In this document: positions 42,367 through 46,167 of the stretch, in pieces
How positions within the stretch are numbered: the first letter of the stretch is position 1
How the letters are laid out: every line of letters starts with the position of its first letter
Source: Chloroflexota bacterium
GTDB taxonomy: Bacteria > Chloroflexota > Dormibacteria > Dormibacterales > Dormibacteraceae
DNA: 47,806 nt
Assembly (NCBI GenBank): GCA_005880795.1
Contig: VBGP01000028.1
Coordinates: 1 to 47,806, forward strand
Direction of reading: 5' to 3'
Program-made: the position numbers and the translations under genes
Notes under the pieces: model-generated
Told to the model about the DNA's origin: nothing
Database searches by the model: none
The model's input: the letters and a program-made list of their open reading frames with translations, nothing else

Positions 42367-42842
42367 TGGTGTTTGGTGTCCCCATGCAGGAGCTGCACCG
42401 CATGGCCGAGTACTGGCACCACGGCTTCCAGGGATTCGGTCGCGCCTTTGGCGCTGCCGGGCACGTTGATGATCAGCGACTGGCCGCGCACGCCGGCGAC
42501 ACCACGCGAGAGGGCGGCCATCGGCGTGCTCGACGCGCCGGCCCTTCGCATCAGCTCAGCGAGGCCCGGGACCTCGTAGTCGATCAGCCTCGACGTCGCT
42601 TGCGGCGTCACGTCGCGTGGCCCAAGGCCGGTGCCACCGGTCGTGACGACCACGTCTGCGCCATCGACAACGGCCGCGACGATCGCGTCGTTGATACGCG
42701 CCTGGTCGTCGGGCACGATCTCCGGCCCTGAAACTTCGAACCGGGCATGCTTCAGCAGGTCGAGCAGGGCCGGACCGCTCGTGTCCGTGCGCGTGCCCGC
42801 TGAAACACCGTCGCTCACCGTGATCACGTGCGCGCGATGCAC
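42363..42842 (-). CDS. moaB: MogA/MoaB-family molybdopterin biosynthesis protein
   Basis: Acts in molybdenum cofactor synthesis, probably adenylating molybdopterin before metal insertion. The 159-residue protein has HVITVSDGVSAGTRTDTSGPAL, then ADVVVTTGGTGLGPRDVTPQA and INVPGSAKGATESLEAVVPVL, all diagnostic of the MoCF_biosynth domain. GTG at 42842 overlaps the moaC stop by one base. Which name (moaB or mog) is right cannot be decided by eye. Confidence 0.9.
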   Translation of the reverse strand: MHRAHVITVSDGVSAGTRTDTSGPALLDLLKHARFEVSGPEIVPDDQARINDAIVAAVVDGADVVVTTGGTGLGPRDVTPQATSRLIDYEVPGLAELMRRAGASSTPMAALSRGVAGVRGQSLIINVPGSAKGATESLEAVVPVLGHAVQLLHGDTKHQ

Positions 42843-43309
42843 TAACGCTTCCAGGTCCCCGAGCGGCCTCCGGATTTTTCGAGCAGGCGGACGGACTCGA
42901 GGTAGACGCCGCGCTCGACACCCTTGGTCATGTCGATCAGCGTCAGCCCCGCGACGGCCGCGGCGGTGAGAGCTTCCATCTCGACCCCGGTCTGGCCCGT
43001 GACACGCGCCCTCGTCACGATTCGCACGCCGCCTTCGACGAACTCGAAATCGACGCTCACGCTCGTTAGAGGCAGCGGGTGGCAGAGGGGGATCAGATCA
43101 GGCGTGCGTTTCGCGCCCATGATGCCGGCGACCCGCGCGACCTGAAGCGCATCACCTTTTGCCGTGCCTTCGCGCACCGCTTGCACCGTGCCGGCCGCCA
43201 TCCGCACGATGCATTCGGCGGTCGCCTCGCGCACCGTCGCGATCTTGTCGGCGACGTCGACCATCCGCGCCGCGCCCTTCTCGTCGAGGTGAGTGAGTCG
43301 TTTCGCCAT
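42842..43309 (-). CDS. moaC: Cyclic pyranopterin monophosphate synthase
   Basis: Second step of molybdopterin synthesis. The 155-residue protein starts [19 protein letters not shown] and contains [51 protein letters not shown] and [12 protein letters not shown], all near-invariant in MoaC. It opens a tight operon of seven genes down to the DinB-like gene. TATCCT (minus strand, 43318-43323) lies 8 nt before the ATG. Confidence 0.95.
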
Positions 43310-43328
43310 GGAGCATCAGGATATGCGC

Positions 43329-44036
43329 ATGCCCGGCACGGACGGCGTTCTCTTCGACTACGGCCGGACCCTCGTGACCTTTGCCTATCCGACGGAGGAG
43401 CTGCTGCGCGTGATCAACGGTTTCCGGCCCCGCATCCAGGCGGCGCTGGGGGTGCCGGCGCCGGAAGCCGAGACGATCCTCCGTGATGTCCTCCTTCCGC
43501 TCGAGGAGTACGTCGAGAGCATGAGCGAGGACGAGGTGGAGTACGTGAACGTCTACAGGGAGAAGTGGCAGCGGGCGGGTATGCGGCTGCCGGATGACCT
43601 CCTCCACGAGGTCCTCGACGCCGAGCAGCGATGCTGGGACCGCGCCGTGGAGGTCGATCCCGACGCAGTGCGCGTGCTGTCCTGGCTGGGCGAGCAAGGA
43701 GTTCGGCGAGGGATATGCTCCAACGCGCCGTTTCCGCCGGCGATGATGCGCCGCCAGTTGCGCAGCAACGGCGTCGATCAGTTAGTGGACGCGGTCGTCT
43801 TCTCGAGCGAGATCGGACGCCGCAAGCCGGCGCCTGAGGTGTATCAGGCGGCAGTCAATGCGATAGGTACGGTGCCGGCTAGAACGATGTTCGTCGGCGA
43901 TCGAGCGCGTGAGGACTACGAGGGGCCGCGCGCGCTCGGCATGCGGGCGGTGATCGTGACCAAGCACGCCAAAGACGCTCCACCTGACGGCGTGCCCACG
44001 ATCGAGTCCCTGGCGGAGCTCCCTTCGCTCCTATGA
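43329..44036 (+). CDS. HAD-superfamily hydrolase (motif I DYGRT)
   Basis: A 235-residue haloacid-dehalogenase fold protein. Motif I reads VLFDYGRTLV, so the second Asp of DxD is Gly, as in the D-x-G-x-T subset. Motif II is GICSNAPFPP, motif III SSEIGRRKPAPEVYQ and motif IV MFVGDRAREDYEGPRALG, giving a subfamily I cap. Starts at 43308, 43323 and 43329 are all in frame; 43329 is used because AGGA lies 7 nt before it and it begins MPGTDGVLFDYG. Divergent from moaC. Its stop overlaps the small membrane protein start by 4 nt. Confidence 0.8.
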   Translation: MPGTDGVLFDYGRTLVTFAYPTEELLRVINGFRPRIQAALGVPAPEAETILRDVLLPLEEYVESMSEDEVEYVNVYREKWQRAGMRLPDDLLHEVLDAEQRCWDRAVEVDPDAVRVLSWLGEQGVRRGICSNAPFPPAMMRRQLRSNGVDQLVDAVVFSSEIGRRKPAPEVYQAAVNAIGTVPARTMFVGDRAREDYEGPRALGMRAVIVTKHAKDAPPDGVPTIESLAELPSLL

Positions 44037-44275: not shown

Positions 44276-45030
44276 GCCGCCCTCGCGGCGATCAGCGTCG
44301 CCGCCGCGCCCGCCCCCACCCCGTTGTCTATGTTCACCACCGTCAGTCCGGTCGAGCACGACTGCAGCATCGTGGTCAGGGCTGCCTCGCCCGCGCCGCC
44401 GCGACCGTAGCCGGTCGACACGGGAAGACCGATCACCGGCAGGTCGATCAGCCCGGCGACCAGACCCGGCAGGACACCGTCCATCCCAGCCGCGACGACC
44501 ACGACGTCAGCGCCCCATTCCAGCACCGCGCTGAGCGGTCCGACGAATCGATGCAGGCCGGCGACCCCCAGGTCAGCCTCCATTCGCGCCTCGAGGCCGC
44601 ATGCCTCGACGACCATGCGCGCTTCATCCGCCACCGGCAGGTCTGATGTGCCGGCGGTCAGGATGCCGACCTTTCCGTCCAGCGGCTCAGGGGAGAAGCC
44701 CATGCGCAGCACGCGCGCCGCGGCGTGGTATTCGGCAACTCTCATTCCGGCCTGCCGCGCGGCATCGCGGAGCGCCGACTCGTGCGCGTCGCTCATCCGA
44801 CTGATGAGGCCCTGCCCCTGGCGCTCCGCCATCGCGAGGACGAGTCGCGCGGCATCCTGCGGCGACTTGCCCGAGGCGAGCACCACCTCGGGAATGCCAC
44901 GCCGCAAGAAGCGCCCCAGGTCGAGGCGCGCCCGCCCGCCCAGCTCGTCGAGCTGCATGCGCCGCAGCTCCGCCAGGGCATCCTCTTCGCTCAGCTCGCC
45001 GGCGACGAGCCGGCGAAGTACATCTCTCAC
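44077..45030 (-). CDS. larB: Nickel-pincer cofactor biosynthesis protein LarB (with C-terminal extension)
   Basis: LarB carboxylates nicotinic acid adenine dinucleotide in synthesis of the nickel-pincer nucleotide of lactate racemase. From GTG 45030 the frame codes 317 residues. Family features: VRDVLRRLVAGELSEEDAL, LDLGRFLRRGIPEVVLASGK, VGILTAGTSDLPVADEA, DVVVVAAGMDGVLPGLVAGL, VIGLPVSTGYGRGG and VNIDNGVGAGAAATLI. The normal LarB end would be near residue 252. The remaining 65 residues (RRGRSTATTASAMAP and on) are low-complexity, lie opposite the small membrane gene, and are probably a result of stop loss or simply unused readthrough. LarC and LarE are not in the window. Confidence 0.88.
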   Translation of the reverse strand: MRDVLRRLVAGELSEEDALAELRRMQLDELGGRARLDLGRFLRRGIPEVVLASGKSPQDAARLVLAMAERQGQGLISRMSDAHESALRDAARQAGMRVAEYHAAARVLRMGFSPEPLDGKVGILTAGTSDLPVADEARMVVEACGLEARMEADLGVAGLHRFVGPLSAVLEWGADVVVVAAGMDGVLPGLVAGLIDLPVIGLPVSTGYGRGGAGEAALTTMLQSCSTGLTVVNIDNGVGAGAAATLIAARAAQGRRRGRSTATTASAMAPTSSRLKTTAAMARDASGPPGTAKTRARTPVARTTPTSSHGKPRRRRP

Positions 45031-45488
45031 AGGCCGAGCAGCACTTCGCGCATGCGCTGCCAGTGCGTGCCGGCCCAGTAGATGCGGCCGCAATCAGGGC
45101 ATTCGGAGTAGCGCGATTGCGTCCGCCTGACGTAAGGGGGCACGCGCTCGGCGACCACCGCCGGCATACGCGACTCGAGCTCGGAGTTGCACTCGATGCA
45201 TCGAGTCAGCGCGTCTTTCAGCTCGAGGCCAAGCTCCGCGAAGACCTGACGCAGCTGCATCGTCACGTCGTCGTCGCGGATCAAGATCGCGCGCACGACT
45301 CCGGTCTGGATGACACGACGCTTGGTCAGGTCTCGATCGCGCGTCAGGACCACCCGGTTTTCGGCCGCCGCTTCGCGCACGAGCTCCGAATCGCCGATCC
45401 GCGCGTGGTATGAGGCGTCGTAGCCGAGGGCGCGGAGCCAGCGCGCGAGCCGCCCGACGTTGCAGTCGGCCAGGAACCGGGGTCTCAC
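45027..45488 (-). CDS. Mut7-C RNase domain protein (DUF82-like)
   Basis: A PIN-like RNase domain followed by a zinc ribbon, 153 residues from GTG 45488. VRPRFLADCNVGRLARWLRALGYD gives the first acidic residue; VVLTRDRDL and RAILIRDDD supply further acids. The C-terminus has IECNSELE and SECPDCGRIYWAGTHWQRM, with CxxC knuckles. The RNase target is unknown. The stop overlaps larB as GTGA. TAAGAT lies 7 nt before the GTG. Longer N-terminal extension to 45557 lacks family similarity and would cover the divergent promoter. Confidence 0.85.
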   Translation of the reverse strand: MRPRFLADCNVGRLARWLRALGYDASYHARIGDSELVREAAAENRVVLTRDRDLTKRRVIQTGVVRAILIRDDDVTMQLRQVFAELGLELKDALTRCIECNSELESRMPAVVAERVPPYVRRTQSRYSECPDCGRIYWAGTHWQRMREVLLGL

Positions 45489-45511
45489 CTTCGCAATCTT
45501 AGAATCGGGCG
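45489..45511. promoter_or_regulatory. 23-bp divergent promoter with overlapping -10 boxes
   Basis: Between the GTG of the Mut7-C gene (45488, minus) and the ATG of the cupin gene (45512, plus) lie TAAGAT on the minus strand (45496-45501) and TAGAAT on the plus strand (45500-45505). Each box sits 6-7 nt from its start codon and they share two bases. Both mRNAs would be leaderless. Confidence 0.5.
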
Positions 45512-45784
45512 ATGGCGACCTTCGAAGACCTGATGTCAAAGCTCCGGACAGAGGCAAGTGGTTGCTACTCGTGGTCGAACGGTCCAGGAGATCGCTACGC
45601 CGCCCACAGCCACAGCTTCGAGAAGGTCCTTTACTGCGTCGACGGGTCGATCACTTTCGTGCTGGAGAGCGAAGGCCGTAGCCTCGAGCTCAAGCCAGGA
45701 GACCGCATGATGCTGCCCGCCGGGACGGTTCACTCGGCCACTGTCGGACCCGCCGGCTGCACATGCATCGAGGGCCATCGCTAG
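45512..45784 (+). CDS. Small single-domain cupin
   Basis: A 90-residue beta-barrel cupin. Motif 1 is AAHSHSFEKVLYCVDG (His pair and Glu as metal ligands) and motif 2 is LKPGDRMMLPAGTVHSA (second His). Such small cupins are often isomerases, dioxygenases or sensors; the substrate is unknown. It stands alone between two divergent-type promoters. Confidence 0.85.
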   Translation: MATFEDLMSKLRTEASGCYSWSNGPGDRYAAHSHSFEKVLYCVDGSITFVLESEGRSLELKPGDRMMLPAGTVHSATVGPAGCTCIEGHR

Positions 45785-45825: not shown

Positions 45826-46167
45826 ATGAGCATCATCGACTTCATTCGCGACCGCGCCCGGTTCTACAACTGCCCGGTCTGCGGCCGCAGCCTGAAGGGC
45901 TGCGAAGTGCAGGTCCTGAGCCACGAGGACGAGCGATTTCACCTCCAGGTGACGTGCGCCCAGTGCCAGGTGACGTTCGTGGTCGTCCTGGCGATCCAGG
46001 GCGGCGCGGTGGAGGAGGTCGAGAGCGCCGTCGAGGCGCTCGCGCCGCCGGTGGCCGCCGTCGAACCGATCAGCGTCGATGAGATCCTCGACCTGCACCT
46101 CTTCCTGAAGGGTTTCCAGGGCACGCTCACAGAGCTCATCCACCAGCCGGACCACAGCCGCGGCTGA
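45826..46167 (+). CDS. Small zinc-ribbon protein
   Basis: A 113-residue cytoplasmic protein. Residues 13-48 form a four-Cys zinc ribbon: FYNCPVCGRSLKGCEVQV and, about 20 residues later, VTCAQCQVTFVVVL. The second half is helical (EVESAVEALAPPVAA, then VDEILDLHLFLKGFQGTL), with a likely protein-contact role. Function unknown. It lies 7 nt before the desulfurase gene and may be co-transcribed. Confidence 0.7.
   Translation: MSIIDFIRDRARFYNCPVCGRSLKGCEVQVLSHEDERFHLQVTCAQCQVTFVVVLAIQGGAVEEVESAVEALAPPVAAVEPISVDEILDLHLFLKGFQGTLTELIHQPDHSRG

Follow-up and report, generated by a model that had tools for sequence, protein, structure and literature searches.

Bidirectional promoters were recognised from mapped RNA starts. 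In the class described by Warman, Grainger and colleagues, divergent transcription starts lie 7 to 25 bp apart and the two -10 elements overlap (PMC12825309, PMC10268837). According to the available text of PMC12825309, a start distance of 18 bp is the commonest, 10 and 23 bp are also common, and RNA polymerase cannot occupy both sites of such a promoter at once. The latter point had been made for the present locus in an earlier note on this DNA, and it agrees with what is stated for the class. In high-GC bacteria, a TANNNT motif with uninformative middle positions has been described just upstream of starts (PMC3160421, PMC12340547, PMC3898074), and the part of PMC3898074 that was available gives no -35 consensus in Mycobacterium tuberculosis. 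The word "leaderless" has no occurrence in the available text of PMC12825309 and PMC10268837, and neither "divergent" nor "bidirectional" occurs in that of PMC3160421 and PMC12340547. One divergent leaderless pair of M. tuberculosis is up-regulated together (PMC3898074); its starts are 120 bp apart, and it is thus only a loose analogue of the 23-bp gap described here. Among the matches listed, we recognised no paper on two-way promoters that overlap and give a leaderless RNA on each side, which is weak evidence of absence.

The 23-bp gap between the Mut7-C and cupin genes

The window (the whole stretch of soil-bacterium DNA analysed, 47,806 nt) contains a divergent gap of 23 nt at 45489..45511. 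On its left lies a minus-strand Mut7-C RNase-domain gene (45027..45488, GTG start at 45488; PF01927, E 1.4e-46), and on its right a small single-domain cupin gene on the plus strand (45512..45784, ATG start; PF07883, E 6.5e-08). Both starts, 45488 (-) and 45512 (+), were also picked by our own coding-score gene caller, which is blind to promoters. With the Mut7-C protein as query, the nearest named relatives were metagenome-assembled Chloroflexi and Candidatus Dormibacterota, from which we judge the genome to belong to Dormibacterota.

As the earlier note had described, the gap holds two opposite-strand -10 boxes that share two bases. The plus-strand box TAGAAT (45500..45505) stands 6 nt before the cupin ATG at 45512, and the minus-strand box TAAGAT (45496..45501) stands 7 nt before the Mut7-C GTG at 45488; their overlap is the self-complementary TA step at 45500-45501, and both are kept in relatives. 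By eye, we saw no Shine-Dalgarno-like motif in the spacers CGGGCG and TGCGAAG and no TTGACA-like -35 element at 17-nt spacing on either side. The offset of the TANNNT boxes, within the approximately 6 to 10 nt that is enriched genome-wide, together with the lack of a Shine-Dalgarno motif, bears out the description of both genes as leaderless-looking, a prediction made from sequence.

The geometry of such boxes is restricted. Back-to-back TANNNT boxes on opposite strands cannot, by computation, overlap by 1 or 3 bases; an overlap of 2 bases makes the TA common to both and yields, with 6-nt spacers, a start distance of 23 bp, and a 5-bp overlap one of 18 bp. By register, the Mut7-C/cupin gap therefore fits the 23-bp class of bidirectional promoters, with a predicted start-to-start distance of 23 to 24 bp from its spacers, and a second site in the window, between moaC and a HAD gene, fits the 18-bp class. 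Unlike the promoters in the available text on that class, both transcripts are here predicted to be leaderless, and no -35 element is apparent by eye. In its TANNNT beside the open reading frame (ORF), the gap resembles the leaderless genes described in the accessible parts of PMC3160421, PMC12340547 (Deinococcus) and PMC3898074 (M. tuberculosis). Since both transcripts are predicted to lack leaders, start-codon spacing itself would report the promoter class.

We consider it very likely that the gap is a bidirectional promoter of the 23-bp class from which both mRNAs are made without leaders. RNA polymerase would bind in one orientation or the other at the two boxes that share the TA step, and transcription would start about 7 nt past the box, at or within one nucleotide of a start codon, so that both mRNAs would be leaderless. 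We base this reading on the sequence of the gap and its conservation, on the offset of TANNNT boxes across the genome and on the recurrence of the layout. Taken by itself, the gap is modest evidence, since TA-sharing boxes with 6- to 7-nt spacers arose in 1247 of 200000 shuffles of the 23-mer; conservation is the strong evidence. The class of bidirectional promoters is already known, and what we describe is an unusually readable form of it. With both genes leaderless, the start codons would mark the likely RNA starts, so that two-way promoters and their evolution become readable from the genome alone. Such reading extends to uncultured lineages, and it opens the question of whether bidirectionality is selected or merely tolerated.

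Transcription would run both ways, and over time the same cells would probably express both genes. The earlier note went further and held that the shared bases would force exclusive expression. This does not follow from the described promoters. In the available text of PMC12825309, reduced activity in one direction hardly affected the opposite one at the five E. coli bidirectional promoters tested, because basal activity was too low for competition, which was negligible; competition arose when an activator drove one side. It was likewise an overstatement to call the arrangement one of the most compact possible, as 18-bp and 10-bp classes have been published (PMC12825309, text available in part) and the moaC/HAD site has the 18-bp layout.

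Beyond the cupin gene, the plus strand encodes a 113-aa protein (45826-46167) with CPVCG and CAQC motifs and no Pfam match. A relative of this protein was on the same stretch as the cupin in 9/9 same-family loci tested and in 0/7 loci from another family.

Conservation in relatives and unidirectional controls

We examined 32 Mut7-C loci (L001, L022-L050, L142 and L143), which come from 31 of 61 genomes. Of these loci, 25 have the 10-mer ATTCTAAGAT exactly; among the 26 orthologous loci with a Mut7-C identity of about 80% or more the count is likewise 25, the sole exception being L042, which reads ATTCTAGGAC. The dinucleotide CG before the 10-mer is constant in all 25 loci, which extends the match to the 12-mer CGATTCTAAGAT (45496..45507 on the minus strand of the window) in 25/32. 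A second, overlapping set of 34 named-relative loci has the 10-mer in 28 and the 12-mer in 27; in L118, GG replaces CG ahead of the 10-mer. None of 48 fourfold-degenerate Mut7-C sites is invariant in the same 25 loci. As these were chosen by their exact 10-mer, the fair conservation figure for the core is 25/26.

The start codons keep their distance from the boxes as well. A cupin start codon lies 6 or 7 nt from its box in all 25 loci with the exact 10-mer, and an in-frame Mut7-C start lies 7 or 8 nt from its box in 21 of them, the other four being L032, L033, L041 and L043. The start codons are ATG, GTG or TTG across the 25 loci, and a few loci have a nearer in-frame start too (L028 and L034 on the Mut7-C side, L034 and L036 on the cupin side). 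Two loci with a more distant Mut7-C, L049 and L050, keep the layout in other letters, ATCCTACAAT. The two-way layout is not intact in 5/32 loci (L042, L046, L047, L048 and L142).

These observations bear on the possibility that only one box works, in which case the other would be a side effect of -10 symmetry and its gene would be transcribed from elsewhere. At symmetric -10 elements, divergent output is often antisense and non-coding (PMC10268837, text available in part), and one side can evidently be lost, since the Mut7-C-side box has become TAGGAC in genome G019 (L042) and the cupin-side box TAGGTG in G027 (L142). Against it, in most close loci the spacing between box and start codon is constant on both sides, and the 10-mer is kept whole. 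We therefore regard a single working box as improbable, even if it is the best of the alternatives.

A different reading takes the conserved 12-mer as the operator of a shared regulator, not as two promoters; TANNNT by itself would indeed demand neither so long nor so constant a sequence as the 12-mer. The 13-mer GATTCTAAGATTG, from which a regulon might be traced, has one exact copy in the genome, and the regulon idea was rejected; with 2 mismatches allowed, it occurs at six further places, compared with 3 for a reversed control pattern. Neither flanking gene gave a Pfam match to a DNA-binding domain (E 0.001), the AraC_binding match of the cupin being to the ligand-binding part and not to the DNA-binding one. 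Moreover, unidirectional boxes in other letters are equally constant. We chose three unidirectional leaderless genes as controls, pdxS (PF01680), an Iso_dh gene (PF00180) and a 6PGD-like gene, and sought their box letters anywhere in each locus, viewing positions separately. The pdxS box CGTAGAAT is found in 18/18 close loci (L316-L333), with GCGTAGAAT in 15, and the Iso_dh box ATATSATT in 18/18 close loci (L372-L389); that of the 6PGD-like gene is kept in 2/28 loci only. We regard an operator as very improbable.

The same controls disposed of a proposal that the two-way core is extra constant through double duty of its bases. Since the pdxS and Iso_dh boxes, which serve one direction only, are just as constant in the same genomes, a frozen core does not set two-way promoters apart.

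At some loci the real start has shifted away from its box, on the Mut7-C side in L032, L041 and L043 and on the cupin side in L144 and L153. A GTG remains 6 to 7 nt from the box at all five and opens a mini-ORF of 4 to 8 codons; its stop codon TGA shares bases with the real start codon (TTGA, GTGA, TGATG or ATGA, by eye). On the Mut7-C side, 11 nt separate the mini-ORF start from the real one, as a short duplication would leave them. L033 falls outside this pattern. The sequences suggest that, at the shifted-start loci, the gene is coupled to a leaderless mini-ORF.

Probable leaderless starts and TA-sharing gaps across the genome

In a 594-kb sample with 566 called starts, 82 have TANNNT at 6 to 10 nt ahead of them. 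This is a sharp peak, as the motif occurs at about 2 starts per position at most other offsets. The starts were called with a simple caller of our own, and box offsets are approximate. Genes with a divergent neighbour carry the box in 39/154 cases, compared with 5/154 at a control offset; among co-directional genes whose gap is at least 30, 13/145 carry it, compared with 3 at the control offset. At co-directional gaps below 30, TANNNT precedes the start in 29/245, and these 29 are among the 82. We read the short co-directional gaps as confounded by upstream TAA and TAG stops and prefer the divergent class as evidence. A Shine-Dalgarno-like motif precedes 2.4% of box-bearing starts and 13.3% of all starts. 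Leaderless transcription in this genome is thus likely, because TANNNT boxes are enriched 6 to 10 nt before starts. That both genes of the gap have leaders and are transcribed from promoters inside the opposite gene, as its shortness might invite given that promoters within genes occur in bacteria generally, is hardly credible against this genome-wide peak adjoining the starts and the two spacers free of Shine-Dalgarno-like motifs by eye.

We surveyed 1.09 Mb with 1097 called genes, in which 137 divergent pairs include 16 gaps of 16 to 32 bp, for two full TANNNT boxes sharing the TA, with spacers of 4 to 10 nt and called starts only. Four of the 16 short divergent gaps contain such a strict site, where 5000 shuffles gave a mean of 0.14 and a maximum of 2, and none of 5 convergent short gaps has TA-sharing boxes. 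Several further short gaps share the TA with one box weak by eye and were left out of the four. Apart from Mut7-C/cupin (45489-45511), the strict sites lie between a Lyase_1 gene and Ppx-GppA (ATTCTAGAGT), between the gene of a long proline-rich protein without a Pfam match and a ferredoxin gene (ATGGTACCCT), and between Peptidase_M19 and MarR (C35:13111, AGAATAACTT). The Ppx site is exact in 16/30 orthologous loci and kept in changed letters in 5 more, two genomes being counted twice in this set. The ferredoxin site is exact in 18/30 and kept in changed letters in 2 more; most of the orthologous loci that lack it belong to other families. A near-miss site at cysS, AG[GC]ATAGA, is present in 16/30 loci. 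The excess is confined to TA-sharing within short gaps. A genome-wide enrichment of boxes on both sides was considered and rejected, with 6/137 pairs compared with 7.2 expected if the sides were independent.

Divergent gaps of 50 to 59 nt are over-represented, at 19/137, where the 10-nt bins in the ranges 30-49 and 60-79 average 5.0. Two complete promoters side by side, without overlap, may need at least this much room.

The moaC/HAD site and changed partners of the cupin

The earlier note had hinted at a similar arrangement between moaC and the HAD gene. It is real, and its register is tighter. The minus-strand -10 box TATCCT (43318..43323) lies 8 nt before the moaC ATG at 43309 (gene 42842..43309 on the minus strand; PF01967, E 5.2e-49). 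On the plus strand, the -10-like box CAGGAT (43317..43322), with C and not T in first place, lies 6 nt before an ATG at 43329. The two overlap by 5 bp, which is the 18-bp register. From this proposed leaderless ATG, the HAD-like hydrolase gene runs over 43329..44036 on the plus strand (PF00702, E 5.8e-17 for 43320-44033); our coding-score caller placed its start at 43308, and a further in-frame ATG, at 43323, directly follows the CAGGAT box.

The core TATCCTGA is present in 17 of 19 same-family loci (among L286-L304) and in 0 of 11 loci outside that family. On the HAD side of the 17 loci, the start of a frame of at least 201 codons lies 6 nt from the box in 15, 7 nt in one and 9 nt in one, and in most a second in-frame ATG comes immediately after the box. 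For moaC, a frame of at least 155 codons starts 6 to 8 nt from the box in 14/17 and 11 nt from it in L287; in L294 and L297 a short frame is next to the box, with moaC aligning at a distance of over 60 nt.

The cupin is also found opposite other genes, orthology being assumed for its more distant forms (49 to 55% identity). Across from it in G020 and G032 is a gene for a UPF0047 protein (PF01894), with the core ATTGTAGGAT on the cupin strand; by eye the UPF0047 GTG is 7 nt away, and the cupin ATG is further from the core than that. The partner in G023 is also UPF0047; there the boxes GATTAT and CATAAT are in the 18-bp register, and by eye the cupin ATG is 9 nt off. In another family, the cupin faces a large ORF in 6/7 loci (L146-L151, not L145), which is an MFS transporter (PF07690) in both loci tested. 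Between the two in L146-L151 stands GCATTATG, whose boxes both start with C and not T, with 6 nt to the cupin ATG and 7 to 8 nt to the other ATG by eye. Over all three partners, the register is 23 bp in most loci and 18 bp in G023 and the MFS loci. Tentatively, we raise the possibility, on balance an unlikely one, that the unit kept in Dormibacterota is the two-way leaderless promoter and not the gene pair, the cupin being one arm with three partners (Mut7-C, UPF0047 and MFS). A leaderless -10 box may be a ready-made landing site for any ORF across it, with selection then holding both sides.
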